Assembly: GCF_000427965.1 (NCBI RefSeq)
Contig: NZ_ATZA01000005.1
Location: forward strand, 1 to 64,000
Direction of reading: 5' to 3'
Length of the DNA: 64,000 bases
Origin: Olivibacter sitiensis DSM 17696
Lineage (GTDB): Bacteria > Bacteroidota > Bacteroidia > Sphingobacteriales > Sphingobacteriaceae
In this document: positions 48,486 through 64,000 of the stretch, one piece after another
Layout: every line of letters starts with the position of its first letter
Position numbering within the stretch: position 1 is the stretch's first letter
The notes under the pieces: model-generated
Seen by the model: the letters and a program-made list of their open reading frames with translations, nothing else
Told to the model about the DNA's origin: nothing
Database searches by the model: none
Translations under genes and position numbers: made by a program

Positions 48486-50444
48486 TCATCTAATGGTATA
48501 TTTTTCTGTTTTGGTAATTTCTGGCCAGTTGTCCGTACGAAAAGGTTCTGCTGGCAAGCCAGAAGTGTTGAACAAATTGGCGGCTCCTGCATCGTCTGCC
48601 CAAGCATAGTGCACTGAAACCGGCACACTAACCTCGGCAGCCGTCAACACCACCTTATTGCCGGAAATCACAGCCTTTGCAGGATAAAACTTTTGATTGG
48701 CGCCCGCCAGCTCAAAGCCATTCAACTCAAGCCCTTTCACTTTTAGCCCGCCGTCGGTATTTTTAAAGGTTAAGGTTACGGTATTTCCCGAAATCTTTAC
48801 CTTATCCAGTATCGGGCCTTTGTCTACCACTTTTTTTCCATAAGTGTTCTTCAAAGCCAATTTTGCCAATCGCAGTCCAACGTCCTGCTTGTTCTTGGGA
48901 TGTATATCCTTGGATTCACCGATATCAATGGTAACGGCCATACCTGTATTGGACAAATCCAACGCTTTTGTTTGTGCTTCCCGAAGTTCTGCCCATTGGC
49001 TCCCTTCGTTGCTCACCCCACCTCCTGCCTGATAGCTGGCTAGTTGAACAAAATAGAAAGGCAAAGCGCCCTGGGCGAAATGCGTTCGCCAGTCGGTAAT
49101 CATCAATGGAAAAGCAGTTTGATATTGATGGGCTCGGGGAGCATTGTTCTCCCCCTGATACCATAGAAAACCTTTAATACTCATTGGCAAGAGAGGGAAA
49201 ATCATGGCATTATACAATAAAGACGGGTAGCTATTGGGACCTATATCGATCTTAGAATCAAACAAACGCTCCACTTTATACTTCCATTCGGAAGCTAGGG
49301 GAATGATCTTGTCTCCGATATGCAGACCTACATCATCCGGCCGTCCATATATTCCGCCATTACCATAACTATCCTCTATCCTCACGGCAATCACATTTGT
49401 TCCCTCTTTCAAAACTCCCGATGGGATTTTATATGCCCTAGGCTCATTATAGCTTTTCGTTCCTCCTACACGCACTCCGTTTACATAGGTATCGTCCATG
49501 TCATCAATGGCGGCCAAAAGAAGAAGTGCTTCCTGACCCGCATCTTCAGAAGAAATCTGTAGGGTTTTGCGCATCCACACTATGCCATCCAAAGTACCTA
49601 GGGGTCCTTGCCACAGGCCGGGTACCTTCATTTCGGGCCAAGTGGAGTCATCATAATCTGCGCCCTTTAGCCGAGCTAGTTCGGATGCATCGGGCAGACC
49701 CCCTTGTTGCTGTTGTATGGTTTCTATATTGCTTTCCTTTATCTTTTTCATCTGGCTTACCCTCTCTTCAAAAGAGAAGCTGGAAGTGAACTTGGCATCC
49801 ACAATACCTGCCTGTTGCAATGCTGTCAGACTAGTCCATGTTTCTATATCGGTACCACCCCAAGACGAATTGACGATACCAATTGGAACCTGTAGCTCCC
49901 TATATAATTCCCTCGCAAAGAAATATCCCACTGCGGTAAATTGACCAACATGCTGGTTATTAGCGACTTTCCATTCTCCTGCATCCATCAAATCGTCCAA
50001 AGGATTTGCCGATACAGCATTTGAAACCTTAAAATTTCTGATATTTGGGAAATTGGCAGAAGCTATCTCCACTGTAGCATTTGCGCTCTGCCCCACCGTC
50101 CATTCCATGTTGGACTGCCCAGAACAAAGCCATACATCGCCCACCAGCACATCCTCCAGCACGATTTTGTTTTTGCCTTCTACGGTCAATATATCCGGTC
50201 CTCCGGCCTTTTCTGGTTTAAGAACAACATACCAAAGACCATTTTCATCTGCTGTCACCTGTCGCTGCTGCTGACGAAAACGGATGCTTACACTTTCGCC
50301 TCTGGCGGCCCAACCCCAGATCTTCATATCCTTGTCCCTTTGCAAGACCATGCCAGTACCGAAAATCTTGGGCAACCGTATCTCGCAAAAAGTTTGTCCC
50401 ATTATAAAAAATGCGACTAGAAAAAACGCAAGTTTCTTGTTCAT
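48486..50444 (-). CDS. sialate O-acetylesterase-like SGNH carbohydrate esterase
   Basis: A 652-residue exported esterase with signal peptide ('FIMGQTFCEIRLP'). The SASA-type domain begins after an N-terminal 'FGTGMVLQRDKDMKIWGWA' region; the nucleophile is S111 in 'LCSGQSNMEW', the oxyanion Asn is in 'NSSWGGTDIETWTSL', and 'DIGESKDIHPKNK' near residue 537 holds the catalytic Asp-His. A beta-sandwich insert ('DDTYVNGVRVGGT') is inserted in the catalytic domain, as is common in this family. It removes O-acetyl groups from sialic acids or from other acetylated sugars. Last gene of the minus-strand carbohydrate locus. Confidence 0.88.
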   Translation of the reverse strand: MNKKLAFFLVAFFIMGQTFCEIRLPKIFGTGMVLQRDKDMKIWGWAARGESVSIRFRQQQRQVTADENGLWYVVLKPEKAGGPDILTVEGKNKIVLEDVLVGDVWLCSGQSNMEWTVGQSANATVEIASANFPNIRNFKVSNAVSANPLDDLMDAGEWKVANNQHVGQFTAVGYFFARELYRELQVPIGIVNSSWGGTDIETWTSLTALQQAGIVDAKFTSSFSFEERVSQMKKIKESNIETIQQQQGGLPDASELARLKGADYDDSTWPEMKVPGLWQGPLGTLDGIVWMRKTLQISSEDAGQEALLLLAAIDDMDDTYVNGVRVGGTKSYNEPRAYKIPSGVLKEGTNVIAVRIEDSYGNGGIYGRPDDVGLHIGDKIIPLASEWKYKVERLFDSKIDIGPNSYPSLLYNAMIFPLLPMSIKGFLWYQGENNAPRAHQYQTAFPLMITDWRTHFAQGALPFYFVQLASYQAGGGVSNEGSQWAELREAQTKALDLSNTGMAVTIDIGESKDIHPKNKQDVGLRLAKLALKNTYGKKVVDKGPILDKVKISGNTVTLTFKNTDGGLKVKGLELNGFELAGANQKFYPAKAVISGNKVVLTAAEVSVPVSVHYAWADDAGAANLFNTSGLPAEPFRTDNWPEITKTEKYTIR

Positions 50445-50511
50445 ATAGGTTTATTTAATCAGTTACGTTTAATACGGTAAATATATGAAATGTCTGCATT
50501 CCAAATGCTGC

Positions 50512-51924
50512 CTATTTCAATACAAATAGCTGCAGCCAGCGCTCGTCACCATCGGTAACGTAGCGATTGTAAGCCAGGCAACTACCGTCATAACTCCATG
50601 TTATTGCTCCAATAGGCGCATTTGCATCGCTTGATTTCCTGGTTATCCGCTCGGTCTCGCCCGATCCGATTTCTGTTATAAAGACACTGTTGTCGGACAC
50701 ATAGGAAACAAAACGGTCATCGGGACTAATACTGAATGCCGATTGTACGGCGAATGGGTTCTTTGTCACCTGCCTTATTTGGCCTCCAACAGTGGGTACG
50801 GCGAATACCTGTACGATGCCTTCATCGTCTTTCATCAGAAAGAAAACGGATTGGCCGTCGGCAGAGGTACGGAGCCAATGCCTCGGTCCCTGTATACCCG
50901 GATACTTTCGAGAACTGGTAAAGGTCAACCGCCTTTGTTCAGTTCCTTGGGGTGGGTTTGGCCTGCTCTTTCCCGTTCCTTCTAGCGGTTTGTCCACTAC
51001 CGCCTGCGTGATGTCGTTTGGTATATTCACCACAAATACTTCGGTGACTATATTACCCAGGCTATCGCGTACATTGCCCTGAAAAGCAATAGCCCGCTTT
51101 TGCTTTGCCCCGCCTGTCTTGATATAGCCATCCTTACCTATCCATGCTTCATCAAAAGCCTTTTCAATCTCGTCGCTTCCCCATCTGGGCCTCTCCGTCA
51201 CTTCCGTGACCACTGCACTGAACATTTCCCCGCGATTGTTTTCCAATGAGCCGTCATCTTTTACCACGACTTTTCCAGGACACATCACTCCCACTACCCT
51301 CAAATCCAGCACAGAAGAATCCGTTTTGGCTAATTGTTCCATGATATAGTCATTGTAGGTAAAGGAAATCCACTCGCCATCTCCGCTCCAAGAGTGGGCA
51401 TGCGTACCCCCTCGAAGGGCTCCGGCCGTAAACGGGGGAAAAATATCGCGCGCATCCATAAATATAGGCTGTTCTGGCCGCTCAATATCTATGGCTACAC
51501 CTGTTCGGCGAGTCATGCCATAGGGCTTGTGCTCATCGGAATTGCGAATGCCTTGGATAAACAACACCCTGTTTGCCACGGGAGAGAAGGTAGCGGCCCC
51601 TACGCCGGGGCCATATTCGCTTTGGTTGCTGGTTTGATACAGTACTTTCGATTCCCCTGTCTCTATATTGATCATCTCGATCCTGCCAGTGCTTCCTATC
51701 TGGGTATCATCGTTGCGCGTATCGTAGACTATCCATTTACCGTCTTTTGAAAAGACCTGAGCATGATGAAGGGTATGTCCTTGACGGGCAGTGGTGAGCT
51801 GACTTTCTTCCAATTTTATGTTCATTTTATGCTGTTGGTTACAAGCAGTGAGACAGGTCATAAATCCCAACGAGAAAAGATGGCTGATCTTTATCAACAA
51901 AGCTCTCTTAACTTGACCTTTCAT
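50512..51924 (-). CDS. DUF3748 (YidR-like) TolB-type beta-propeller lipoprotein
   Basis: A 470-residue protein with a lipobox-like 'CLTACNQ' near residue 27. It is a WD40/TolB-like propeller ('VFSKDGKWIVYDTRNDDTQIG', 'SPDDRFVSYVSDNS', 'WSYDGSCLAYNR' repeats) matching DUF3748, the family of Escherichia coli YidR. 'GGTHAHSWSGDGEW' near residue 178 has a conserved His pair, and 'GPRHWLRTSADG' another His, so it may bind a ligand or act as a lyase. yidR lies near the galactonate genes in E. coli as I recall, which suggests sugar-acid context. 6 bases downstream of the esterase gene. Confidence 0.82.
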   Translation of the reverse strand: MKGQVKRALLIKISHLFSLGFMTCLTACNQQHKMNIKLEESQLTTARQGHTLHHAQVFSKDGKWIVYDTRNDDTQIGSTGRIEMINIETGESKVLYQTSNQSEYGPGVGAATFSPVANRVLFIQGIRNSDEHKPYGMTRRTGVAIDIERPEQPIFMDARDIFPPFTAGALRGGTHAHSWSGDGEWISFTYNDYIMEQLAKTDSSVLDLRVVGVMCPGKVVVKDDGSLENNRGEMFSAVVTEVTERPRWGSDEIEKAFDEAWIGKDGYIKTGGAKQKRAIAFQGNVRDSLGNIVTEVFVVNIPNDITQAVVDKPLEGTGKSRPNPPQGTEQRRLTFTSSRKYPGIQGPRHWLRTSADGQSVFFLMKDDEGIVQVFAVPTVGGQIRQVTKNPFAVQSAFSISPDDRFVSYVSDNSVFITEIGSGETERITRKSSDANAPIGAITWSYDGSCLAYNRYVTDGDERWLQLFVLK

Positions 51925-51930
51925 GATACT

Positions 51931-53238
51931 TTACTTACCCAACCGTCCCAGCAACCATTCCGTTATTTTCGCCTGCTGTTCGGGAAATGTCCAGTGTCCC
52001 GTTTCCTGCACCACAAAAAGTTCCTTTGGTGCCTTAATCTGATTATAGGCGGCGTAGTACGAGGTGGGCGGACAGGTTTCGTCATTGTATCCCCAAGTAT
52101 AAAAACCCGGTACTTTGACAAAGCGTGCAAAATTGACTACATCGTAATATGCCGACACCTTGATTTTTTCTTCCTTGGCCATAAAGGGTGCATTCCATTC
52201 GTTGAACATGTGGGGCCATCCGCCGGCCCGGCCGTGGAGGTAACCGGTCAAATCGCATAGTGCGGGATATAGCGAGACTAAGGATTTCACCCGCTCATCG
52301 AGTGCCGCCGTAACAATTGACAGTGCGCCCCCTTGACTGCCTCCCCATACCGCCAAGGTGCTACCATCAAATTCGGGTAGGGAATACAAATAGTCGATGG
52401 CACGTACACAACCCAAGTACACTCTTTTGTAGTAGTATTGATCGCGATCGTCCATATTGAAAAATTGATAATCCTTCAATGCGCCCGCGCGAAGATCGTC
52501 ATACAATGTCGTCTCATAGGTCACGGGTATGCCGTGAATACCGATCTGTAGTGTGATGATGCCCTTTTCGGCAAGGTCGACAATGCCCGCATATGGTCGT
52601 ATGCCCGCCCCTGGCACAGACAGTACAGCAGGGTATTTTCCCTCTTGCTTGGGTTTGGCCAAAATACCATATAGCCGCGCACCGACTTCAAAATTTTGCA
52701 GATTTACCTGATATACATCCACCTTTTCGGTGCAACGTTCGGGCAAAAGGATGAGCTTGGCATCTAAAGGTACTTTTGCAGCATCGGCCTTTGCTTTATT
52801 CCAAAAGTCCCAAAAATCATCGGGTAATGTCTGGGTGGGTTTAATTGTTTCGGGCAGGTATGCGGCAGTGGCCAAACCACGGTACTCCAAGCCATCCACG
52901 TTCACCTTCACCTCACAGCGCAAAAATCCTGCTTGCTTCAACGTTCCTTTTATTTCTCCCAAACCATTTTGCAGCTTTAGCTCACCCTTGTTCGTTGGCG
53001 GCATCTTTTCCAGTCCCACACTATAGGTCACTTCCACGTCCTTTATGGGTACCTGGTGTTGCAAAACCCTCACCGTAAACTTAGCTTCCTCGCCAATCGC
53101 GTAGTTCCAATCGGGTTTATCTGGCGAAACCAGCACCTGAATGGGGTGGGGCGGGCGCGACTGTGCAAGGCCGAAATAAAAAAAAGAAAGCAAAAGGCTT
53201 AATGCCATCAAAGGCCGAATAAACATTCGTATTCTCAT
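51931..53238 (-). CDS. acetylxylan esterase-like (CE7-type) alpha/beta hydrolase
   Basis: A 435-residue exported hydrolase from the ATG at 53238 (the TTG at 53247 is less likely). Signal peptide to about residue 26; an N-terminal Ig-like domain (about 30-125), then the AXE1/cephalosporin-C-deacetylase domain with nucleophile S301 in 'WGGSQGG', D386 in 'GYNDETCPP' and H415 in 'ETGHW', the complete triad. Such enzymes take acetyl groups off xylose or other sugars. Its place beside a sialate-O-acetylesterase-like gene suggests an acetylated target glycan. Confidence 0.9.
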   Translation of the reverse strand: MRIRMFIRPLMALSLLLSFFYFGLAQSRPPHPIQVLVSPDKPDWNYAIGEEAKFTVRVLQHQVPIKDVEVTYSVGLEKMPPTNKGELKLQNGLGEIKGTLKQAGFLRCEVKVNVDGLEYRGLATAAYLPETIKPTQTLPDDFWDFWNKAKADAAKVPLDAKLILLPERCTEKVDVYQVNLQNFEVGARLYGILAKPKQEGKYPAVLSVPGAGIRPYAGIVDLAEKGIITLQIGIHGIPVTYETTLYDDLRAGALKDYQFFNMDDRDQYYYKRVYLGCVRAIDYLYSLPEFDGSTLAVWGGSQGGALSIVTAALDERVKSLVSLYPALCDLTGYLHGRAGGWPHMFNEWNAPFMAKEEKIKVSAYYDVVNFARFVKVPGFYTWGYNDETCPPTSYYAAYNQIKAPKELFVVQETGHWTFPEQQAKITEWLLGRLGK

Positions 53239-53363
53239 GGTTGTCAAAAATAAAGGTTTAATAATGAGGGAGCAATATACTAATTTCTGAGCATCGTCAC
53301 TCCTAAGCTGAGATTAAATGCCTCAATACTACTCCCTCACTCTTTGCCTGCACCAATTCCCAA

Positions 53364-54575
53364 TTATTTGCTCAAATTGGACAACAGGTGCTTCCGAAAG
53401 TCCGTGATACGATGGAAAGTCAAAAAATTGGCATCGTGGTTATTGTGAGCTCCGCCTTCCTTGTCATCATATGCCGTTCTGCAGGCAACTATCATATCAT
53501 TGTCTTCAAACAGCCAGTCTACATACTGAAAGCCGTGATTCAGCACATCGGGATGCTGCAAGACAATATGGTGTACCTGCCAATTCATCAAATCCGATGA
53601 ACTCATCAGTGCCAAGGTATTGCGGAAACTGGCGGCGTTTCTACCTGGATATTGCTGTCTAAATTCCTGTGGGATAATGTTGCTCAAGGTCCAATAACGC
53701 TTGCTTTTGTCATCAAAGCGAATGGCAAATTTCTTGCTTCCTCCCGGAAACGACACGAAGCCCGTTGTGGGATCGAAAGAGGCAATCTTGCCGTCGGCAC
53801 TTATTTTCACTATAGCTGCCTTTTCGTCCATCGTAGTTCTATCATCTACCCGCAATATATCTACCATATTCCCGTCAGGCGCTACTACGGCATTGCCCTC
53901 TAGCCAACCGGTAAAGTGACCTTCCAGATAGGTGGAGTCATATGGCAGGAAATTGCTCGTTGTCCAGCTATCGGCCTGTAGGAGGTCGGCATTGACCGGA
54001 GCAGACATCATCATGGCACCATAGCGCTTGCCCCATTGCAGTATGGGGCCATGGGCAGTTTCCATGGCCCGCCACAGACGTCCATTATGTTCGATAACCG
54101 GCATGGGAGCACAATGGAACTCACCGGCTAGCAACAGTCCATTCTCCCTATTGCTAGGCTGGGACCAAGTCACGCCACCATCTTCCGATTTACGGATGAG
54201 GACGGTCCCATGGTGCCTATCGGGACCCAAGAGGTATAATACTTCCCGATGTACAAATAAGCTAGACCAAAATGCCCCTCGGATTTCACTGATCTGCTGC
54301 CAGCTCTTTCCCTTGTCTGAAGAGCGATATATCCTGGAAATGGCCTGGACAAATTCCGAACTATTCGGGCCGAAAAAATCGTGCGAAACGACATAATCAC
54401 CGTTGGGAAGTACCGCAATACTGGGCGAGCCAATGTATTGTTTTGAAGATGCGGGTTGATGCGCAATGATCACACCTGGCACGGTAGATAGATCTTGTCC
54501 CTTTATCTGCCCGTTCATGCAGGAGAAAAAGAATGCGCCCATTACAATAAATTTAAATATCCTGAAGTATAACAT
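53364..54575 (-). CDS. sialidase-superfamily beta-propeller, probably GH145-like rather than true sialidase
   Basis: A 403-residue lipoprotein (lipobox-like 'FFFSCMN', Cys near residue 19). Two Asp-box motifs ('SSDKGKSW' near 85 and 'SEDGGVTW' near 128) show a bladed beta-propeller. At the position of the sialidase Arg motif (F/Y-RIP) it reads 'YIGSPSIAVLPNGDYVVSHD', so the key Arg is lost, while H65 in 'VVSHDFFGP' and the tract 'LLGPDRHHGT' are kept. This recalls the GH145 L-rhamnosidase/PL27 type, which uses a His near that position. The family assignment is an inference. It is the only candidate backbone- or side-chain-cleaving enzyme of the locus. Confidence 0.7.
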   Translation of the reverse strand: MLYFRIFKFIVMGAFFFSCMNGQIKGQDLSTVPGVIIAHQPASSKQYIGSPSIAVLPNGDYVVSHDFFGPNSSEFVQAISRIYRSSDKGKSWQQISEIRGAFWSSLFVHREVLYLLGPDRHHGTVLIRKSEDGGVTWSQPSNRENGLLLAGEFHCAPMPVIEHNGRLWRAMETAHGPILQWGKRYGAMMMSAPVNADLLQADSWTTSNFLPYDSTYLEGHFTGWLEGNAVVAPDGNMVDILRVDDRTTMDEKAAIVKISADGKIASFDPTTGFVSFPGGSKKFAIRFDDKSKRYWTLSNIIPQEFRQQYPGRNAASFRNTLALMSSSDLMNWQVHHIVLQHPDVLNHGFQYVDWLFEDNDMIVACRTAYDDKEGGAHNNHDANFLTFHRITDFRKHLLSNLSK

Positions 54576-54626
54576 ATGCTAAAATGCTTGTCGTATGTTG
54601 TCTTTTACTATCATTGACGCCATTTC

Positions 54627-56096
54627 TCAATAGCCCTCGTTTTGTACCAAAAGTGGGTCGGAGTCCATCACGGCTTGTGGGATTGGGAAAAGTACATGAT
54701 GTGCCGTGGCACTCGTTTTCCCTCTAGCTATTGCCCCTGAGATAAACTTGTCCATTCTGATCAAATCCATTCTTCGGTGTCCTTCCGAATAAAACTCCCA
54801 CCCGCGTTCTGCAAGGATGTGATCTCGCAAAGCCGCTTTATCCGAAAAGGCTCCAAACGCAATACCATCTAAGGCTGCTCTAGTTCTCACTTGATTTATC
54901 AAGTCGAGGGCTTCCTGTGTAGGCCCATTCAACTCATTCAGCGCCTCTGCCCTAGAAAGGAGAATATCTGCATACCGTATTTCGGGTATATCGTTACCAT
55001 GGGAAGCTCCCAATGCCCCAGGGTCTGGCAGGTATTTAAAGGATCGGATATTGTCATTGCCAAGGAGAGACACCGTCTGTCCCGAGCTATTGATATAAGA
55101 AGTAACCAATAAATTCCTTCGCTTATCTCCTTCTTCAAACGAATTATAAAAGCTGTCGTATATCCTGAACTCGTTAGGCCAGTTGACATAAGTAGGCAGG
55201 TACCTTACGCCAAGGCTTGGTGCTTCTGCAAAATTGTCTGGAAATGCGGTATTCATCCAGCTATTGGCGGTGGCCCTGTCGCTACTTGCAAAAGCCGGCC
55301 GAACCCAGATATACTCTCCATTTCGCTCGTTGGCTACGCTAAAAAGCGTTTCATAATTGGCGAATAGGCTGTAGCTAAACTGACTCATTATATTTGCCGC
55401 TATGTCGGCACATTTTTGCCATTGTCTGGTATTCAGGTAAAATTTACAAAGATAACCCATTGCAGCAGCTTTATGAGCTCTTCCATAAGCTGCCTCTTCT
55501 CCCGGTGATGGCAGATCTGCCGCCGCACCCAATAGCTCTGTTTCAATAAACGTCCTCATCTCTTCGTCCGAAGCCCTCGCCAACTGCAATTCTCCAGTAG
55601 TGCTTACACGTAGCGGAACTGGGCCGAACATAAAATACAGCTTATGATAGCTAATAGCTCTTAAAAACCTGAACTCAGCGATATAGATTGCTTTTTCACT
55701 TTCAGAAATGCTGACATTGTCGATATTTTCCAGCAAAATATTCGTATTGCGAATGGTTTGATAGGGTGCGTCCCAATTATTACCTATGAAATCGATGGTA
55801 GGATCCCAGGTGAAATTAATAAAGTTGCGCGCATCCCGTTCAACATTATCTCCTGACTGATAGAGGATATCCGTTGGCCACTCTTGTGGAGCAATCACAT
55901 AGATGGAATTATTGGTATTCATATTTGCTGCTCTGGCATATGCATCTGCCAATACGGATTCAATGCCCTCTCTTGTGTTCAGGTAATTGTCGGGAGCAAG
56001 TTGCGAATACACTTCTTCGTCCAGAAAACCGCTACACGATTGCAAGGCCATCAGACCTGCCACACTAAAAAAACCGATATATTTTGATAATTTCAT
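54627..56096 (-). CDS. SusD/RagB-like outer-membrane lipoprotein
   Basis: A 489-residue SusD protein from the ATG at 56096 (a GTG 9 bases upstream gives a less usual start). Lipobox 'LMALQSC' near residue 20. The N-terminal TPR-like part ('REGIESVLADAYARA', 'FRFLRAISYHKLYFMFGPVPL') and the C-terminal 'EIRYADILLSRAEALNEL' and 'ERGWEFYSEGHRRMDLIR' are diagnostic. It captures glycan at the cell surface and closes over SusC. It follows susC by 12 bases. Confidence 0.95.
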   Translation of the reverse strand: MKLSKYIGFFSVAGLMALQSCSGFLDEEVYSQLAPDNYLNTREGIESVLADAYARAANMNTNNSIYVIAPQEWPTDILYQSGDNVERDARNFINFTWDPTIDFIGNNWDAPYQTIRNTNILLENIDNVSISESEKAIYIAEFRFLRAISYHKLYFMFGPVPLRVSTTGELQLARASDEEMRTFIETELLGAAADLPSPGEEAAYGRAHKAAAMGYLCKFYLNTRQWQKCADIAANIMSQFSYSLFANYETLFSVANERNGEYIWVRPAFASSDRATANSWMNTAFPDNFAEAPSLGVRYLPTYVNWPNEFRIYDSFYNSFEEGDKRRNLLVTSYINSSGQTVSLLGNDNIRSFKYLPDPGALGASHGNDIPEIRYADILLSRAEALNELNGPTQEALDLINQVRTRAALDGIAFGAFSDKAALRDHILAERGWEFYSEGHRRMDLIRMDKFISGAIARGKTSATAHHVLFPIPQAVMDSDPLLVQNEGY

Positions 56097-56108
56097 AATA
56101 ATCACTGA

Positions 56109-59100
56109 TTAAAGACCAATATTAATACCTAACAGAAATGTTCTTGCAGAGGGGTATGCATTCCAATCAATCCGAAAATTTGCGCTCCCATTTGGATTTA
56201 AGGCGGGGTCGTAGCCCGTATAATCGGTAATGGTAAATAAATTTTGCCCAGAGACATAAACAGATGCCGATTTAATAGCTCGTCCCGACATAGGAAGCTG
56301 ATAGCTAAGCCGCACCGTATTCAATCGGATATAGGAAGCATCTTCTACAGTATAGGAATTGACGGTTTTCTGCCCCTGTACATTTGGCGTCACAAAAGAA
56401 GGGTATGTGGTAGAAGGGTTTTCGGGCGTCCAACGGTTTAATAGCGGTTCGGCCAATCTGTTTCTTTTCAAATTTGCCGGAAAGTAGGTGTCTACTGCAT
56501 TATTGTTCAACATACTTACCCCGTTCACTCCTTCAAAAAAGATATAAAGGCCAATATTTTTATAGCTGAAAGTATTGGTAAATGACCAGATAAAATCTGG
56601 GAATGAGTCGCCCAGGATCACCCGGTCCTCGGCGTTAACCACTCCGTCTCCATTCACATCCAAGTATTTTATATCTCCTGGATTTACGTTATCGTTTGTC
56701 ACCGAAAAATCGTCGCCTTGCTGCCATATGCCAATAATCTCGTACCCATAAAAGGAATGCAAGGGCCTACCTTCTTCAATAATGGCGATCTGACCTGTTG
56801 ACCCTGCCGAACCAGTGATGATATTAGGAATGCCACCCAGATTGGTTACCTTGTTCTTCAACGTATTGAAGCTGATATTGGAATCCCATTTAAATGCTCC
56901 TGTCAGGTTATTGGTAGCCAGCATCAACTCGAATCCGCTGTTCTGCATACTACCAATGTTCGTCATCATGGACGAAAAACCCGTGGAGCGGGGAATGGGT
57001 AGACTCAGCAGCATATCGCGGGTATTCTTGGTGTACCAATCGATTGTTCCCGAGATTCTATTGTGCAAAATACCGAAATCTAAGCCAGCATTAATTTGTT
57101 CAGACGTTTCCCATTTCAGATCGGGATTGGCCAGGCGGGACGGTGCTGTGGAAGAAACCTGTATGCCATCAAAAACCGTTTTCAGACCCGTCCCAAAAGT
57201 AGACATTGATTGATTGTTGCCTATCTCCTGATTTCCGGTTTTACCCCAACTGGTTCTTAGCTTTAAGGAATTGAGTGTTTCCACCCCACTGAGGAAATCT
57301 TCCTCATTTATCTTCCAGCCCAATGCCACAGAGGGAAAATATCCAAACTTGTTATTGGCTCCAAAACGCGACGAGCCATCTATACGCAAAGCCGTGGTAA
57401 ACAAATACTTGTCATGCAAGGTATAATTCACTCTTCCCAGATAGGACAACAAGCTATTGGAGCTTTTGCCACTGCCAGTGATGTGCGTAGTGGGATCGCC
57501 AAGGTTCAGGTTATTGGTGCCTGTCGCATCCGAAGGAAATCCACGCGCCTCTGCAGAAAAGTCATCGTCAATAAAACGCTGACCGGTCATCCCAATTACG
57601 GCATTTAAGGCGCTGTTTTGAAATGTTTTGTTATAATTTATGGTTGCCTCGGCCAAGTAGTTACTGTTCTTGCCTTGCAGGATACTGGCTATTCCTCCGG
57701 CCGCGCCGCCATCGATAGTTAGCCTGTTGATATATGTATCCCTACGTTGGTTCACGATATCTCCTCCAATATTGAGTTTTGCCGACAGGCCATCGGCGAG
57801 TTGGTATTCGCCGTAAACGGTACCGAATGTACGGTAAAGATTAGAGACAGCTTTCTTTCCATTCCCAATAGCCAATGGATTGTCGATATTCATGTCCGTT
57901 GATAAGGTATATTTTCCCTGTTCATCAAACATGGATAAGGTCGGATCATAATTGATGGCGGCGTAAATAATACCTGCCCTTTCATTCAAATCCATCCCAT
58001 TGGGTACGTAATCGTCCTTGCTGTAGGATGTGCTCAAACTGAGCCCTAGCTTAAACCTGTCCATCACGCGGTGTTCTAGGTTGATCCTGGCGGTATATCG
58101 TTTGTTTCGCGAATTGATCAAAACGCCATCTTGATCGTAATAATTAAAAGAAGTCATAAAAGTGGTATGTTCACCGCCTCCAGAGAACGACAGGTTATGA
58201 TTTTGAATCGCTGCATTCGGCTGATATACCTCCTCCAACCAATCAGTTCCCCCGTTATTTATACCTGAAACCCGCTGGTTGTCGGAACCTCCGCCGGCAT
58301 CGATAATGGCATTAATGGTTTGCATGTATTCGGATGCATTGAGTAGTCGTATTTTGTTGGCTACATTCTGGAAACCGGCATAGGCATCATAGTTAACTTT
58401 CATGGCGCCTGATGCGCCACTTTTAGTTGTGATCAAGACAACGCCATTGGCACCTCTTGAACCGTATATGGCCGTGGCAGAAGCGTCTTTCAAGACCTCG
58501 ATAGAGGCAATATCATTTGGGTTTATGGAATTTAATGGGTTCCTTGCCGTGCGCATACCCGTAAAATTGGCACCCGAGCCAGAAACTGCAGACGAGTTGT
58601 CCAGCGGCAAACCGTCTACCACATACAGTGGGCTATTGCCCGCATTGATGGATCCCACACCACGGATATTCACAGAGATCCCACCTCCTGGTTCGCCGCT
58701 ATTCTGCACTACCTGAACACCTGCTGCTTTACCAGCGATCAGCTGATCGGCAGAGGTTATGGCTCCTTGATTGAAATCCTTCGCACTCAACGTAGTTACC
58801 GACCCTGTCAGATCGCTCTTTTTCACGGTACCATAACCCACTACCACAACTTCATCCAATTCCGAGTCGTCTGCAGTCAATGCTATATTGACAATCGTTC
58901 TCCCAGCTAGATTTACTTCTTGGCTTTGATAACCTATAAAACTCACCGACAATTTTTCAGTTCCTGCTGAGATCGTAATGGAATATTTTCCTTCAGCATT
59001 CGTTGTCGTTCCGTTGGTTGATCCTATGACTTTCACTGAAGCACCCACCAACGGCTCATTGGTCAATCGATCGGTTATCTTCCCGGAAATAACCGTTTGT

Positions 59101-59171
59101 CCAGCTGCATATGTCATGCAAAACATTAAGCAGGCAGCAAGACACCATCTTTTTAATCGCGCTTTTATCAT
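56109..59171 (-). CDS. SusC/RagA-type TonB-linked outer-membrane transporter
   Basis: A 1,020-residue intact SusC protein from the ATG at 59171 (signal peptide 'CMTYAAGQT'). It has the carboxypeptidase-like regulatory domain ('ISGKITDRLTNEPLVGASV'), the motif 'DELDEVVVVGYGTVKKSDL' (TonB box region near residue 100), plug motifs 'SPLYVVDGLPLD' and 'IASIEVLKDASATAIYGSRG', and a barrel ending 'ARTFLLGINIGL'. Together with SusD it imports oligosaccharides using TonB energy. The 143 bases upstream show no exact -7 match. In contrast to the broken susC at 3725, the frame is complete. Confidence 0.95.
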   Translation of the reverse strand: MIKARLKRWCLAACLMFCMTYAAGQTVISGKITDRLTNEPLVGASVKVIGSTNGTTTNAEGKYSITISAGTEKLSVSFIGYQSQEVNLAGRTIVNIALTADDSELDEVVVVGYGTVKKSDLTGSVTTLSAKDFNQGAITSADQLIAGKAAGVQVVQNSGEPGGGISVNIRGVGSINAGNSPLYVVDGLPLDNSSAVSGSGANFTGMRTARNPLNSINPNDIASIEVLKDASATAIYGSRGANGVVLITTKSGASGAMKVNYDAYAGFQNVANKIRLLNASEYMQTINAIIDAGGGSDNQRVSGINNGGTDWLEEVYQPNAAIQNHNLSFSGGGEHTTFMTSFNYYDQDGVLINSRNKRYTARINLEHRVMDRFKLGLSLSTSYSKDDYVPNGMDLNERAGIIYAAINYDPTLSMFDEQGKYTLSTDMNIDNPLAIGNGKKAVSNLYRTFGTVYGEYQLADGLSAKLNIGGDIVNQRRDTYINRLTIDGGAAGGIASILQGKNSNYLAEATINYNKTFQNSALNAVIGMTGQRFIDDDFSAEARGFPSDATGTNNLNLGDPTTHITGSGKSSNSLLSYLGRVNYTLHDKYLFTTALRIDGSSRFGANNKFGYFPSVALGWKINEEDFLSGVETLNSLKLRTSWGKTGNQEIGNNQSMSTFGTGLKTVFDGIQVSSTAPSRLANPDLKWETSEQINAGLDFGILHNRISGTIDWYTKNTRDMLLSLPIPRSTGFSSMMTNIGSMQNSGFELMLATNNLTGAFKWDSNISFNTLKNKVTNLGGIPNIITGSAGSTGQIAIIEEGRPLHSFYGYEIIGIWQQGDDFSVTNDNVNPGDIKYLDVNGDGVVNAEDRVILGDSFPDFIWSFTNTFSYKNIGLYIFFEGVNGVSMLNNNAVDTYFPANLKRNRLAEPLLNRWTPENPSTTYPSFVTPNVQGQKTVNSYTVEDASYIRLNTVRLSYQLPMSGRAIKSASVYVSGQNLFTITDYTGYDPALNPNGSANFRIDWNAYPSARTFLLGINIGL

Positions 59172-59314
59172 GTTTAGTTTATAATTAATTGGTTCATTAC
59201 TATTCACGACTTGACATTGGTTCGATCAAGTCCTGTTTCAAAAATCTCTACGAATCTTCGCCTTCCCCGATGACAGCAATAGATGCGGCGAGACATTGCC
59301 TCTCGGCTATTTTT

Positions 59315-60247
59315 TTAAACGACCAGTTTTATCTCCATTCTTTTGTACAAATTTTCATAGTCAACATATAACTTATCTATATCTCTCCGTACCTCGCTAT
59401 CGAAGTTTCCCACATCCCGACGCGTATAAGTAGAAATAGGCAGCCCCCGCTTTTGCAAAAAATATTTGGCCACTACCGGATATACGGCATGCATGACATC
59501 CATGTGGTCTATGAAAAACTGCTGTGCCTCTTGCACTTGCTCATGAAGTTCGGGCACGTCATAGTTCTTGCACAGCCACACGATCAACTCGGGAAAATAA
59601 TTGCCCTGAATACAGGAAAGACCCGCTGCGCCAACCCTTAGGGAATCAACCGCATGGGCCATATAGGCATCGTAAAGCCCAAAGGCATCATGTCCTTCTG
59701 TGGCTTTAAGCTTCGCCTTTATTGCATCCAGATCCAGGCAAGTATCTTTGTGGTATATCACCCTTCCCGTAGACACAAATGCACCCAATTGCTTGGCCGA
59801 CAGCACACGTTTGAAGGGATCTGGGCATTCATAAAAACCCAAGGGAATGTTTTCGGTAAGGGTCAACAAATCATATACGTTACTTTCAAAAATGGCATCT
59901 TCTACACCGTCTTCTCCCAACATATTAGTGATGACTATTACCGCTTGCACTCCAGTGTCATAGATTTGCTTCACAAAATCGGCCTGTTGCACGGTATTCC
60001 CCCCAAAGGTACCCGTTGCTACTACCGGCACTGCACCAGCACTAACATCTACAATATATTTGGTTACCTTCAGGCGTTCTGCCTCGCTGAGCTCAAACAT
60101 TTCGCTGGAAAGGCAATTGGCAAATAATCCTGCCGCGCCAGCGTTGAGATAGAACTCCGTCAAATGGGTCAAACCATCATAATCGATTGCTCCGTTTTCC
60201 TTAAAAGGGGTCAGCATCACAGGAATAAATCCTTTCTCTCTATTCAT
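59315..60247 (-). CDS. dihydrodipicolinate synthase/N-acetylneuraminate lyase family aldolase
   Basis: A 310-residue class I (Schiff-base) aldolase-family protein. The catalytic Lys is K167 in 'VIYHKDTCLD' and the Tyr is Y139 in 'LGFYECPDP', the standard pair. The substrate carboxylate motif (GTTGE in DapA, GSTGE in NanA) reads 'CLSSEM' here at about residues 45-50, so the enzyme has diverged and is unlikely to be DapA or NanA proper. It could cleave or dehydrate a 2-keto-sugar acid. Promoter-like sequence at 60300-60293 with direct repeats upstream. Confidence 0.85.
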   Translation of the reverse strand: MNREKGFIPVMLTPFKENGAIDYDGLTHLTEFYLNAGAAGLFANCLSSEMFELSEAERLKVTKYIVDVSAGAVPVVATGTFGGNTVQQADFVKQIYDTGVQAVIVITNMLGEDGVEDAIFESNVYDLLTLTENIPLGFYECPDPFKRVLSAKQLGAFVSTGRVIYHKDTCLDLDAIKAKLKATEGHDAFGLYDAYMAHAVDSLRVGAAGLSCIQGNYFPELIVWLCKNYDVPELHEQVQEAQQFFIDHMDVMHAVYPVVAKYFLQKRGLPISTYTRRDVGNFDSEVRRDIDKLYVDYENLYKRMEIKLVV

Positions 60248-60292
60248 GGGATAAATACGTATGGAAATTTGTCATTTATAATTGATACCAAA

Positions 60293-60300
60293 CAAAGATA
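60293..60300 (-). promoter_or_regulatory. candidate -7 element upstream of the aldolase gene
   Basis: On the minus strand this reads TATCTTTG, an exact TAnnTTTG match, giving a leader of about 40 bases before the ATG at 60247. Confidence 0.5.
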
Positions 60301-60322
60301 TACCGATACCTATGTCCTTTTC

Positions 60323-60354
60323 TATAGGATATTGGCAGGTATTTATAGGATATT
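60323..60354 (-). promoter_or_regulatory. 11-bp direct repeats with 21-bp period, operator candidate
   Basis: TATAGGATATT occurs at 60323-60333 and again at 60344-60354, exactly 21 bases (two helical turns) apart, just upstream of the -7 candidate of the aldolase gene. The second copy overlaps the symporter stop codon (60343-60345). Same-face repeats at this distance suit binding by a regulator dimer or two monomers. Confidence 0.5.
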
Positions 60355-61914
60355 ATCGCGCTGTTTCTTTGCGCGAATCCAAGTAATCAATCTCCCCGAC
60401 AAAAAGATGCTCAAGGTTCCTACGACGATGACCATATTGGCATGTAGCGGATTCCGAAGATAGCTGTACTGCTCGGGAATAAGATAAGAAAAAGTCATCC
60501 ACACGATGACGCATATACCGATTATTGTCCCCGCTATGGCCTCGGCATTGCCTGTCTTTCTGCTGATGATGCCCAGTAGAAATAATCCCAACATGCCACC
60601 TGCGAAGATACCAGATAGCTGCCACCATACATCCAATACGCTTTTGATGCCAATCATGGCCACTCCTGCAAACATGCCGAACAATCCGAAGGCCGTGGTA
60701 GCGATATAGAGCAAGCGCAATTGCTGTTTTTCTTTTATATTCGGGTTGATATAGCGTTTATAAATATCTTCGGAAAAAACGGTAGCAGAAGCATTCATTC
60801 CCGAACTGATGGTGCTCATGGCTGCCGAAAGTATGGCCGATACGATGAGGCCAACCAAGCCCGTGGGAATCTTGGTGACCATAAAATGGGGCATGACCTT
60901 ATCGCCATAATCCTCTGGCTTCAAAGTAGCTGCCAACTTTGCTATGTCGCCTGACGTGGCGCTGGCGGAAAGACGTTCGGCAGCGGCCTGTAACTTGACG
61001 GGCTCAATCATGTCTGGATTTATCTGGTAATAGGCATACAGGCAAGTGCCGATGATGAAGAACAACAGGGATGCGGGCAAATAAATCCATACGCACAGCC
61101 AGATCGATTTACTGGCTTCCCTCGGCGAAGTAGCCGTGTGGTACCGTTGCACGTAATTCTGATCCATGCCAAAATTGTTGAGGTTAATAAAGAAACCATA
61201 CAAGAGGATAACCCAAAAGCTTGCCTGTGTAAAATCAATATCCCAACTCCCCAAACTGAACTTATGGTCTGCCTTGCCTATTTCCACGATCTTGGAAATG
61301 CCTCCGGGCATATTGACTACTACCAAGTATACTATCAGCACGGCACCCAGCGTTTTGATGATCCCTTGTACTACTTCTGTCCAGATCACAGCCTCAATCC
61401 CTCCTAAAACAGTGTAAAAGATAATGCAGATGCCGGTCACCAACATAATAAGCTCCATGGAATATCCCGTGAGGGCTTGCAAGCTAAGGGCGATACCGAA
61501 AAAAATGGATCCCATTCGCGCCAGCTGGGTAAGCAAAAAACAAATTACGGCATAGCTCCTGGCCCAAGGACCAAAGCGCTTCTCCAGATTGGTATAGGCA
61601 GAGACCTCGCCCGTAGCCCTATAAAAAGGAACAAAATACTTGACCGCAACCCAGGCCGCCAATGGCATGGATATACTGAATACGAATGCATTCCAATTCC
61701 CCCCAAATGCCTTGCCCGGTACACCGAGAAAAGTATTGCTGCTCAAAAAAGTGGCATAGATGGACAAGCCGATTGCCCAACCCGGTATCATGCCGGAGGC
61801 CTTGGTAAACTGATCGGCGCTTTTGTTCTTTCTGGAGAACCATATGCCTACCAATACCATAGCCAAAAGGTATAAAAAGATAATGGCAAGATCTATAATT
61901 GGCAGGTTCTTCAT
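60343..61914 (-). CDS. sodium:solute symporter (SSS family)
   Basis: A 523-residue inner-membrane protein with about 13 hydrophobic segments. 'SGMIPGWAIGLSIYATFLSSNTFLGVPGKAFGGNW' is the conserved start of the transport core (near residue 38) and 'LSAAMSTISSGMNASATVFSEDIYKRYI' the later conserved helix (near residue 358), matching the SSS family that includes sialic acid, glucose and proline carriers. It would take up the released monosaccharide with sodium. Its ATG overlaps the stop of the kinase gene in ATGA, so the two are coupled. Confidence 0.92.
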   Translation of the reverse strand: MKNLPIIDLAIIFLYLLAMVLVGIWFSRKNKSADQFTKASGMIPGWAIGLSIYATFLSSNTFLGVPGKAFGGNWNAFVFSISMPLAAWVAVKYFVPFYRATGEVSAYTNLEKRFGPWARSYAVICFLLTQLARMGSIFFGIALSLQALTGYSMELIMLVTGICIIFYTVLGGIEAVIWTEVVQGIIKTLGAVLIVYLVVVNMPGGISKIVEIGKADHKFSLGSWDIDFTQASFWVILLYGFFINLNNFGMDQNYVQRYHTATSPREASKSIWLCVWIYLPASLLFFIIGTCLYAYYQINPDMIEPVKLQAAAERLSASATSGDIAKLAATLKPEDYGDKVMPHFMVTKIPTGLVGLIVSAILSAAMSTISSGMNASATVFSEDIYKRYINPNIKEKQQLRLLYIATTAFGLFGMFAGVAMIGIKSVLDVWWQLSGIFAGGMLGLFLLGIISRKTGNAEAIAGTIIGICVIVWMTFSYLIPEQYSYLRNPLHANMVIVVGTLSIFLSGRLITWIRAKKQRDNIL

Positions 61915-63563
61915 AATTTATGACTATAAAATTTATCCCCAAGTATAAGATATCTTGGATAAAGTGTTTCATATATCGCCACTTTATCCTGTTCGGGCAG
62001 ATAGGTCTGCTCAAATCCCGATGACATGGCCCGCTGAGCACTGGATATATCAGCGTGAATACCGCTCACCACAGCGGCATACATGGCCGCACCCAAGGCA
62101 CAGGCTTGTTCGCTGCGTACAGTTTTTATGGGCCTGTTCAACACATTGGCCAAGGTCTGCATCACGTAGGGCGATTTTTTGCTGATGCCACCTAGGGCGA
62201 TAACTTCTTGTACCGGAATACCTTCTTTCTCGAAACGCTCGATAATGGCTCTTGATCCATAAGCGGTGGCTTCGACCAATGCCTTAAATATCCGAGCGGG
62301 AGAAGACCCCAAATGCAATCCCGAAAGCACAGCAGTAAGATTCAAATCGACATCTGGTGTACGGCGCCCATTGATCCAGTCCAACGCGATTTCGTCATCT
62401 ACGGTAAGGGGAACAAGCGCGGCTTCTTTGTTCAACTCGGACAATATGCGGCCGCTCAGGCCATTCTGCTCCTCGGCAGAGAGTTTTTCTGGATATATGT
62501 TCGTGAGTGGAAAGCTTAACAAGTTGGCAAACCATTGATATAGATCACCAAAGGCGGATTGTCCTGCCTCAAAGCCGAGCATATCTGGAATGATAGACCC
62601 ATTCACTTGGCCGCATATACCGCGCACAAACTGCCCTCCATGTTTATCGGTAGGAGCCACCAGCATATCGCACGTAGACGTTCCCATCACTTTCACCAAG
62701 CTGTACGGAGCAATACAGGCACCTACAGCACCCATATGTGCGTCAATGGCCCCTACGCCTACTTTTACCGCTGGCGATAGACCTAATTTTTCGGCCCACT
62801 GCAACGATATTTTCCCCATGCCATGATCGGCCGTATAGGTGTCTTGGTAGAGCCTATTGCGCAATTGGGCTAGTCGGCCATCGAGCTGTTGCAGAAAATT
62901 GGCTGTGGGGAGGCCGCCGAAATCCTGATGCCACATGGCCTTATGCCCTGCCGCGCAACGGCTCCGCTTTATCTCCAAGGGATTGGTATTGCCCGTAAGC
63001 ACGGCAGATAGCCAGTCGCATTGTTCCACCCATGAAAATGCACGCTGCGATACCGCATTATCCTTGCGGATAATATGGAGGATTTTGGACCAAAACCATT
63101 CAGAAGAATAACTCCCACCGACATATTGGGTAAAATCCGTTTCCCAACGCTTTGCCAACTCGTTGATCTCGGCCGCTTCTGCATTGGCCGTGTGATCTTT
63201 CCACAAAATGAACATCGCATTCGGATTGTCCGAAAACTCGGGAAGCAGTGAAAGAGGTGTTCCATACTCATCTACCGCAACAGGTGTAGAGCCTGTAGCA
63301 TCTACGGAAATGCCGACGATGTTGTCCCTGACCTGCTGCGAAACGGAAGTCAATACCGCCCGCAGGCCGCGCTCCATACTTTCCAAATAGTCCAACGGAT
63401 GCTGGCGAAACTGCGCCTTGGCCGCACTGCAGTATAAACCGGCCGCCCAGCGAGCAAAAGGGGATACGGCCATACCCATTTCTTCACCCGTCAGCGCATC
63501 GACCACTAAGGCCCTAACGGAATCTGTCCCAAAGTCTAACCCAATAACATATGTTGATTGCAT
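61911..63563 (-). CDS. FGGY carbohydrate kinase, ribulokinase-like
   Basis: A 550-residue FGGY kinase, close to the length of ribulokinase AraB (566 in E. coli). 'VIGLDFGTDSVRALVVDA' at residues 6-23 is the first phosphate-binding motif, 'GISVDATGSTPVAVDEYG' near residue 84 and 'LWKDHTANAEAAEIN' near residue 120 are typical of ribulokinases, and 'VIALGGISKKSPYVMQTLANVL' near residue 453 completes the ATP site. It phosphorylates a ketopentose or similar sugar. It ends in a 4-base overlap (ATGA) with the symporter and begins 11 bases after the isomerase-family gene. Confidence 0.9.
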   Translation of the reverse strand: MQSTYVIGLDFGTDSVRALVVDALTGEEMGMAVSPFARWAAGLYCSAAKAQFRQHPLDYLESMERGLRAVLTSVSQQVRDNIVGISVDATGSTPVAVDEYGTPLSLLPEFSDNPNAMFILWKDHTANAEAAEINELAKRWETDFTQYVGGSYSSEWFWSKILHIIRKDNAVSQRAFSWVEQCDWLSAVLTGNTNPLEIKRSRCAAGHKAMWHQDFGGLPTANFLQQLDGRLAQLRNRLYQDTYTADHGMGKISLQWAEKLGLSPAVKVGVGAIDAHMGAVGACIAPYSLVKVMGTSTCDMLVAPTDKHGGQFVRGICGQVNGSIIPDMLGFEAGQSAFGDLYQWFANLLSFPLTNIYPEKLSAEEQNGLSGRILSELNKEAALVPLTVDDEIALDWINGRRTPDVDLNLTAVLSGLHLGSSPARIFKALVEATAYGSRAIIERFEKEGIPVQEVIALGGISKKSPYVMQTLANVLNRPIKTVRSEQACALGAAMYAAVVSGIHADISSAQRAMSSGFEQTYLPEQDKVAIYETLYPRYLILGDKFYSHKL

Positions 63564-63574
63564 GCCTGGATAGA

Positions 63575-64000
63575 TTAATGCTCAAAATGTACGTCACCAC
63601 AAAAATGGACCTGAATACCCAATTCATCCAAGGTCACCGCTTTGATACGGCAGGCGCTATGGGCTTGCTGTTCATCTGTTGCGTATACGACATGAATATG
63701 ATTGGCCTGATGCCTTGCCATCAGTTGGTCCCTATTGACGCCATGCAATACGGCGTGCATGATAGGCCATTCCGGTGAGGTTGCCTTCCACCGCCTTTCA
63801 CTTTCTTCGTGAGGCAATTCCAAGGCCTGGCCCACCCCAAGGTCACAATGCAACTCATCGTCCTTCACATAGATACGGCTCCATACGATATAGCCAGCCT
63901 TGCTGACTCCCCTGATGGTTCCACCACCCAGACGGAAATACATGGGCGACTGTCGCCAGCTTTCAGCTCCCGCGTAACCCCCATCGAAGTGGGCGGGCGG
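63575..64000 (-). CDS. L-fucose/L-arabinose isomerase family protein, C-terminal part (partial)
   Basis: Open to the end of the window; the 141 residues visible are the C-terminal part of a longer protein. 'PPAHFDGGYAGAESW' at the cut end, 'MYFRLGGGTIRGVSKAGYIVWSRIY', and 'WPIMHAVLHGVNRDQLMARHQANHIHVVYA' (conserved RDQ-MARH-ANHI core) match L-fucose isomerase-like proteins in Bacteroidota. FucI-type enzymes convert L-fucose to L-fuculose and D-arabinose to D-ribulose. The following FGGY kinase would phosphorylate the ketose. The start is outside the window. Confidence 0.8.
   Translation of the reverse strand, partial: PPAHFDGGYAGAESWRQSPMYFRLGGGTIRGVSKAGYIVWSRIYVKDDELHCDLGVGQALELPHEESERRWKATSPEWPIMHAVLHGVNRDQLMARHQANHIHVVYATDEQQAHSACRIKAVTLDELGIQVHFCGDVHFEH

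Follow-up and report, generated by a model that had tools for sequence, protein, structure and literature searches.

A Putative Kdo Utilization Locus in Olivibacter sitiensis, with a Conserved Association of a Pyruvate Lyase and a FucI-Like Isomerase

Introduction

Which sugar is consumed through a gene cluster that has the outward appearance of a sialic acid locus and yet encodes an isomerase and a kinase for a pentose? This question is raised by a locus of Olivibacter sitiensis DSM 17696 (Bacteroidota; Sphingobacteriaceae) situated at the end of a 64,000-nucleotide stretch of DNA, hereafter termed the window, which comprises bases 1 to 64000 of contig NZ_ATZA01000005.1 (C45; 151.7 kb) in a genome of 5.05 Mb. 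Ten tightly packed open reading frames (ORFs) on the minus strand extend from position 48486 to the end of the window. An original prediction, made from the sequence alone, described these as ten consecutive genes of a possibly undescribed carbohydrate pathway; all of the ORFs were present, and the families named for them were backed by Pfam and NCBIfam. At the catabolic core are an isomerase, a ribulokinase, a Na+ symporter and a pyruvate lyase, a set that follows the logic of sialic acid catabolism but differs from it in chemistry.

Kdo (3-deoxy-D-manno-oct-2-ulosonate) is part of the lipopolysaccharide of most Gram-negative bacteria, and a 3-deoxy-2-ulosonate of eight carbons with a D-arabinose tail is Kdo. 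The analyses presented here indicate that the window probably contains a locus for catabolism of this sugar. The gene set, families, folds and conserved linkage were computed, while every substrate and every reaction was inferred. In this proposal, acetyl groups would be stripped by esterases outside the cell or in the periplasm, the glycan would be captured by SusC/SusD, and Kdo would be freed by a sialidase-fold propeller and taken up by the Na+ symporter. The lyase would then split Kdo into pyruvate and D-arabinose via a lysine Schiff base, the isomerase would convert D-arabinose to D-ribulose, and an AraB-type kinase would produce D-ribulose 5-phosphate for the pentose phosphate pathway. 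As the isomerase and ribulokinase fit a five-carbon product, the lyase substrate would be an eight-carbon ulosonate, Kdo. The proposed reaction is that of the 3-deoxy-D-manno-octulosonate aldolase activity credited to Ghalambor and Heath in 1966, which yields D-arabinose and pyruvate (cited in PMC4412817).

Results

The lyase gene (59315 to 60247) encodes a member of the dihydrodipicolinate synthase (DHDPS)/N-acetylneuraminate lyase (NAL) superfamily (PF00701, 86.5 bits against a cut-off of 22.1) and is the proposed Kdo aldolase. In an alignment (A3) of the window lyase with 29 of the 48 lyases found, Tyr139 and the predicted Schiff base residue, Lys167, were invariant across all 30 sequences. 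Scores with the NanA models were far below their cut-offs (TIGR00683, 34.5 bits against 382; NF003164, 48.3 bits against 281), and CLSSE was present at the site of GTTGE in DHDPS proteins, in agreement with the earlier observation that the GxTGE motif is lacking. Relatives of this protein have been reported to act on Kdo: E. coli NanA and human NPL split it (PMC13220900), and three NALs formed it from D-arabinose and pyruvate at 1 to 1.5% of their rate with N-acetylmannosamine (ManNAc) (PMC4016182). Three other lyase loci (L044, L103 and L105; loci, genomes and contigs of the survey carry L, G and C numbers) contained genes for Gfo/Idh/MocA, HUMPS-family and sugar-kinase-like proteins (the last assigned by eye), and L103 and L105 held a second lyase with 38 to 40% identity; perhaps another pathway employs the same lyase family.

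The product of the adjacent symporter gene (60343 to 61914; SSF in Pfam) had 5nv9 as its best solved relative, with 252.7 bits as compared to 135.9 bits for the next match. This entry is titled a putative sodium:solute symporter, and we take it to be the sialic acid transporter SiaT of Proteus mirabilis. The symporter gene shares 4 bases with the kinase gene, which is separated by 11 bases from the isomerase gene, indicative of an operon-like arrangement.

The kinase (61911 to 63563) belongs to the FGGY family and was identified as an AraB-type ribulokinase by curated models (TIGR01234, 588.6 bits against a cut-off of 583.25; NF003154, 711.8 against 428), matched PDB entry 3qdk with an E value of 4.9e-102, and scored only 38.3 bits with the fuculokinase model, for which the cut-off is 470.9. 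In E. coli, AraB phosphorylates D-ribulose, feeding the pentose phosphate pathway (PMC12307932). This gene is the second ribulokinase copy of the genome; the other (contig positions 107950 to 109602) belongs to an araB-araD-araA set located apart from the locus at 107.9 to 111.9 kb of the contig (araD by eye). The locus shares a ribulokinase family with the araBAD operon but has a FucI-like isomerase in place of AraA, and the kinase is flanked by this FucI-like gene and the symporter gene, with no AraD among its neighbors. The stretch containing the araBAD set (C45, 107.9 to 113.6 kb; L005:7941-13627) also includes an SSS-like gene and is adjoined by GH43-like and GH127-like genes (all by eye).

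Only the C-terminal part of the isomerase (63575 to 64000) lies within the window. Extension of the contig completed the gene (63575 to 65248; L003:3575-5248; 557 amino acids) and added a divergent AraC-type gene (65447 to 66325), confirming the expectation that the locus runs past the window; the AraC-type protein is likely to be the regulator of the locus. Sequence searches gave little for the full-length isomerase. Its Fucose_iso matches (25.8 and 23.4 bits) were under the Pfam cut-offs of 29.3 and 28, no NCBIfam match was obtained at an E value of 1e-10, and a search of solved chains produced no match with either the single sequence (E 0.01) or a profile (E 0.1). The AlphaFold model (pLDDT 89.7) was more informative. 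The top Foldseek match was 3a9r, the D-arabinose isomerase of B. pallidus (E 1.3e-21), and comparison with 1fui gave a VIA Z score of 37.0 and an rmsd of 2.7 for 338 aligned positions spanning residues 195 to 557. Among the matches listed, Z scores were 34.6 to 37.0 for seven L-fucose/D-arabinose isomerase entries as compared to 29.3 to 32.3 for L-arabinose isomerases. The FucI fold was therefore present in the model over residues 194 to 557, with the N-terminal part not superposed, and as modeled the protein is structurally nearer to FucI than to AraA. It is shorter than these isomerases (557 as compared to 591 to 595 amino acids).

Candidate metal ligands of the isomerase were sought in an alignment (A1) of 30 sequences, consisting of the window isomerase and 29 of the 37 homologs found; those left out were L109 (identical to the query), the truncated L057, L058, L070 and L102, and L041, L112 and L122. 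Glu362, Asp391 and His517 were invariant and, as judged from the sequences, may correspond to Glu337, Asp361 and His528, the metal ligands of RdFucI (PMC6894278). Alignment with canonical FucI by hhalign paired Glu362 and His517 at a probability of 7% (E 0.005) and misplaced the Asp motif; Asp391 was paired by motif alone.

Conservation of the locus was examined with gene counts taken from tblastn, as a simple ORF caller picked some antisense ORFs in GC-rich loci. A species-genome scan yielded 41 loci with the lyase, which was accompanied by the symporter in 36, an AraC-type gene in 20, the isomerase in 15, DUF3748 in 10, the kinase in 8 and the propeller in 7. Of 301 genomes drawn from the family to which the window belongs, 114 had the lyase and 88 had the isomerase. 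Both occurred together in 87 of these 88 genomes, at a distance of 10 kb or less in 74 of the 87, and the isomerase of the lone exception (G162) was in two pieces. In view of this association, the original treatment of the sugar acid and the isomerized sugar as separate substrates has less support.

Further tests were performed on 80 of the 114 lyase genomes, namely all 27 lacking the isomerase and 53 of the 87 others. In 47 of the 80, 29 of which have the isomerase, an apiosidase-family gene (PF13204) was located no more than 30 kb from the lyase. Distances were 12 to 25 kb, and 8 of the 13 genera in this set were represented (counted from the tables); the 30 kb on either side amount to about 1% of a 5-Mb genome, and the count was made without a shuffled control. 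The PF13204 apiosidase is presumably the GH140 enzyme that acts on rhamnogalacturonan II (RG-II), and the proximity in 47 of 80 genomes suggests that these are RG-II loci, resembling in this respect the known RG-II polysaccharide utilization loci. In plants, Kdo and 3-deoxy-D-lyxo-2-heptulosaric acid (Dha) are confined to RG-II (PMC12168206).

Two architectures were apparent. In the first, the symporter, lyase, AraC-type gene, DUF3826 and, in some cases, the isomerase are placed inside pectin loci; that of Pedobacter polaris (L073) contains GH28, GH95, GH2, MGH1-like, PF13204 apiosidase, GH43, alpha-L-rhamnosidase and BNR_2 genes. In the second, the isomerase adjoins the kinase. The window locus is of this kind, and its gene order was seen again in Sphingobacterium psychroaquaticum (L070), with AraC, isomerase, kinase, symporter, lyase, SusC, SusD, propeller and DUF3748. 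Among the isomerase genomes, isomerase and kinase were adjacent in 18 of the 24 that have no apiosidase nearby as compared to 1 of the 29 that have one. Ten loci encode a small protein (220 to 250 amino acids) in the interval from AraC to SusC; an epimerase or aldolase was initially suspected, and the protein proved to be DUF3826. A Pfam scan of L040:13486-14694 gave no match. In genome G300, an HpcH/HpaI-type aldolase gene (L098:10444-11223) adjoins the isomerase and kinase and could encode a Dha aldolase.

The D-arabinose step was investigated with canonical FucI (TIGR01089), for which the genome of the window had no match at an E value of 1e-50. In a set of 66 lyase genomes taken from these 80 (27 lacking and 39 having the isomerase), canonical FucI was detected in 6, all of them isomerase lacking (6 of 27 as compared to 0 of 39; p 0.003). 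For the one canonical FucI that was compared, D-arabinose isomerase was the nearest relative, with 977 bits as compared to 887 for L-fucose isomerase. A ribulokinase gene was situated 1.4 to 1.6 kb from canonical FucI in five of the six genomes, with an MFS transporter gene between the two (Pfam for one of the five), and no class II aldolase was recognized by eye around the canonical FucI genes. Two of these genomes, G004, taken to be that of Olivibacter domesticus (L067), and G203 (L097), had loci with the window gene order minus the isomerase and kinase. A separate test of 50 genomes detected AraA (PF02610) in 39, and the 11 without AraA were exactly those whose sole TIGR01234 match (E 1e-100) adjoins the isomerase; five of these 11 kinases scored under the TIGR01234 cut-off.

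The candidate exo-hydrolase for a terminal acid sugar is a BNR propeller (53364 to 54575) whose BNR_2 match of 29.4 bits was under the Pfam cut-off of 31.4. Its structural model (pLDDT 90.7) had a sialidase-type fold, with VIA Z scores of 28.6 to 31.8 and mostly sialidases among the matches listed, the highest being to the NanA sialidase 3h71. The first Foldseek match was the alpha-L-arabinanase 3a71, this fold being common to arabinanases and sialidases. The tripeptide RIP, which we take to begin the GH33 Arg triad, was absent from the entire window propeller sequence. At its presumed place, a site judged by eye, GSP was invariant in all 16 aligned propellers, in accordance with the previous remark that the RIP Arg is lacking. 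This alignment (A2) included the window propeller and 15 of 19 others; L126 (identical), L132, the second L070 match and L108 were left out. A second propeller of the same family, with 49% identity, is encoded elsewhere in the genome (G000:C59; L152:10011-11189), in a locus that also holds GH26, GH43, GH28-like and rhamnosidase genes. In another lineage (L151), a propeller relative is located near a DHDPS-family gene (5334 to 6263) that keeps GTTGE, together with sulfatase-like genes (by eye) and an SSS gene of 42% identity. The L151 arrangement suits a role of the propeller upstream of a pyruvate lyase; the sugar is not fixed thereby.

The remaining genes of the window locus encode proteins for capture and deacetylation. 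A SusC-like TonB-dependent transporter (56109 to 59207; TIGR04056, 893.4 bits) is followed by a SusD-like lipoprotein (54627 to 56105; PF07980 and PF14322). Beyond the propeller are an AXE1-type acetyl esterase (51931 to 53247; PF05448, 156.9 bits), which has a TTG start and whose true start may be internal, a DUF3748 beta-propeller protein (50512 to 51924; PF12566, 126.3 bits) and a SASA-type carbohydrate esterase (48486 to 50444; PF03629, 86.1 bits) with an inserted GH2-like sugar-binding domain (PF02837, 25 bits, under the cut-off of 28). The locus differs from RG-II polysaccharide utilization loci, having BNR, DUF3748 and esterase genes instead of a nearby apiosidase.

Two further loci were observed on the contig. 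Directly upstream (C45, 66.3 to 78.0 kb; L003:6346-18028) are a gene for a GH2 protein related to beta-galactosidases and SusD-like, SusC-like and large hybrid two-component regulator genes (these three by eye). The following region (79 to 93 kb; L003:18990-19745 and L004:1-13305) contains genes for NagB-like, amidohydrolase (NagA-like), MFS, two GH20 and SusC/SusD-like proteins (by eye) and is likely to be a hexosamine glycan locus.

Discussion

A probable role of this locus in Kdo catabolism is consistent with the linkage of lyase and isomerase, the proximity of the lyase to apiosidase genes in presumed RG-II loci, the relationship of the symporter to 5nv9, the activity on Kdo reported for NALs, the FucI-type fold modeled for the isomerase, the restriction of canonical FucI to isomerase-lacking members of the 66 lyase genomes, and the ribulokinase assignment of the kinase together with its retention in genomes without AraA. 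A number of observations weigh against this interpretation. The counts across genomes ignore relatedness, and 27 of the 114 lyase genomes have no isomerase. Canonical FucI was also absent from 21 of these 27, so that the lyase product there needs another route, and 11 had neither canonical FucI nor the FAH gene discussed below. No apiosidase was found near the window locus, the sole match of the genome being on contig C28. Superposition of the isomerase model over the whole chain was poor (TM 0.50), only residues 194 to 557 aligning well. Elsewhere in the phylum, isomerase orthologs (59 to 66% identical) occurred in loci in which BLAST detected no lyase of the window type (12 of 13 matches fetched), and one in another lineage (L141) is beside a class II aldolase, indicating that the uses of this isomerase family extend past Kdo. 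ABC-transporter-like genes (by eye) were noted near other such orthologs (L136 to L138), with an FGGY kinase in L136. In a small AraB tree that included just one true araBAD kinase, the window kinase grouped with four isomerase-adjacent kinases (support 98/97), while the five Sphingobacterium-type cassette kinases were placed away from this group, with an araBAD-type clade between (midpoint root); the cassette kinases did not form one clade in this tree. The propeller lacks the Arg expected for carboxylate binding, making its assignment as a Kdo hydrolase the weakest step. Finally, RG-II offers other roles, as L-fucose or L-galactose could be the substrate of the isomerase and Dha that of the lyase.

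The last point leads to the strongest competing explanation, that functions are split in the use of an RG-II-type glycan, with the lyase acting on Dha, a C7 diacid, or on both Dha and Kdo and the isomerase and kinase serving L-fucose, L-galactose or another neutral sugar. Both acids occur in RG-II (PMC12168206), L-fucose and D-arabinose are both substrates of canonical FucI (PMC6894278), and the 27 lyase genomes without an isomerase and the class II aldolase of L141 would be accounted for. The isomerase, however, was found without the lyase in just 1 of 88 family genomes, the kinase scored as a ribulokinase and far below the fuculokinase cut-off, and none of the ten window proteins was matched to a class II aldolase by Pfam. 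We consider such a division of functions unlikely.

An aldonate pathway, in which the lyase would be a 2-keto-3-deoxypentonate or 2-keto-3-deoxygluconate aldolase and the isomerase and kinase would handle D-arabinose in parallel, is suggested by the loci of Pedobacter nyackensis and Pedobacter sp. ok626 (L041 and L043). Between their kinase and symporter genes are those for an FAH protein, an aldehyde dehydrogenase and a member of the altronate dehydratase family, and the best solved relative of the FAH protein was 2-keto-3-deoxy-D-arabinonate dehydratase (E 5.5e-56). This gene set was present in only 2 of 41 loci (by ORF clustering) and the FAH gene in 22 of 66 lyase genomes; Pfam detected no dehydratase among the window proteins, and an importer like SiaT would not be expected for an aldonate. 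The aldonate explanation is improbable for the window. In the two Pedobacter loci, these genes possibly form an oxidative side route for the pentose, and, in the context of the Kdo proposal, the kinship of the FAH protein is a second pointer to D-arabinose or some similar pentonate. A general replacement of the isomerase by the FAH dehydratase was also considered, for which the evidence was weak (13 of 27 isomerase-lacking as compared to 9 of 39 isomerase-having genomes; p 0.03).

Catabolism of sialic acid (N-acetylneuraminic acid or Kdn) with an odd gene set has very little probability. The likeness to NanH, SiaT/NanT and NanA loci extends to a sialidase-fold propeller, a SASA esterase, an SSS importer nearest to 5nv9, a superfamily lyase expected to release pyruvate, and NagA-like and NagB-like genes about 15 to 17 kb past the window. 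The unlikeness, apart from the motifs missing from the lyase and propeller, concerns the downstream enzymes. A nine-carbon substrate would need enzymes for ManNAc or mannose, for neither of which the isomerase or the ribulokinase is known to be used, and NanE (PF04131) was detected in 0 of 50 genomes, that of the window included, as compared to 5 of 14 control genomes (AGE-type epimerases were not tested). Sialic acid is, moreover, absent in plants (PMC12168206) and so fits poorly with RG-II-type loci. The earlier statement that no NagA-, NagB- or NanE-type genes are seen held for NanE; out of its sight, NagA/NagB-like genes do occur, along with GH20 genes, about 15 to 23 kb past the window, and these belong to the separate GH20 locus, which is equipped with SusC/SusD-like genes (by eye). 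The NanE result and this placement led to rejection of sialic acid as the principal explanation, and the original judgment that the locus does not have the appearance of sialic acid catabolism was supported. We give equally little credit to isomerization and phosphorylation of L-arabinose from acetylated arabinogalactan or from another glycan of plants or algae. This explanation is close to the one favored previously and would suit the esterases and ribulokinase. However, L-arabinose is probably handled by the separate araBAD operon, the cassette kinase is kept in the 11 genomes without an AraA match, and the isomerase as modeled is structurally closer to FucI than to AraA. The lyase is, in addition, tied to apiosidase-bearing loci of the RG-II type (47 of 80), and arabinogalactan side chains have less support as the glycan.

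Two further elements of the original prediction have support, namely an aldolase whose substrate is probably a liberated sugar acid, and the isomerization and phosphorylation of a sugar. Neither a gene set for Kdo catabolism nor the present gene combination was described in the open-access literature searched, outside which fall most subscription papers and all bioRxiv preprints. The claim of an undescribed pathway is plausible. We know of no gene that has been assigned to the Kdo aldolase activity of 1966. A wider and more tentative idea, which we regard as possible and rather less probable than Kdo use by the window locus itself, is that isomerase, ribulokinase, SiaT-like importer and NAL-superfamily aldolase form a movable Kdo cassette in RG-II and other loci and that the propellers with GSP for RIP, which the window shares with 7 of 41 other lyase loci, constitute a novel Kdo hydrolase family whose target is an acetylated Kdo glycan. 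The locus could yield enzymes for Kdo analysis and synthesis. If the Kdo interpretation is true, it would provide genes, with four named candidates, for the Kdo-splitting activity described in 1966 and would explain the consumption, by organisms that degrade pectin, of one of the last unusual RG-II sugars.

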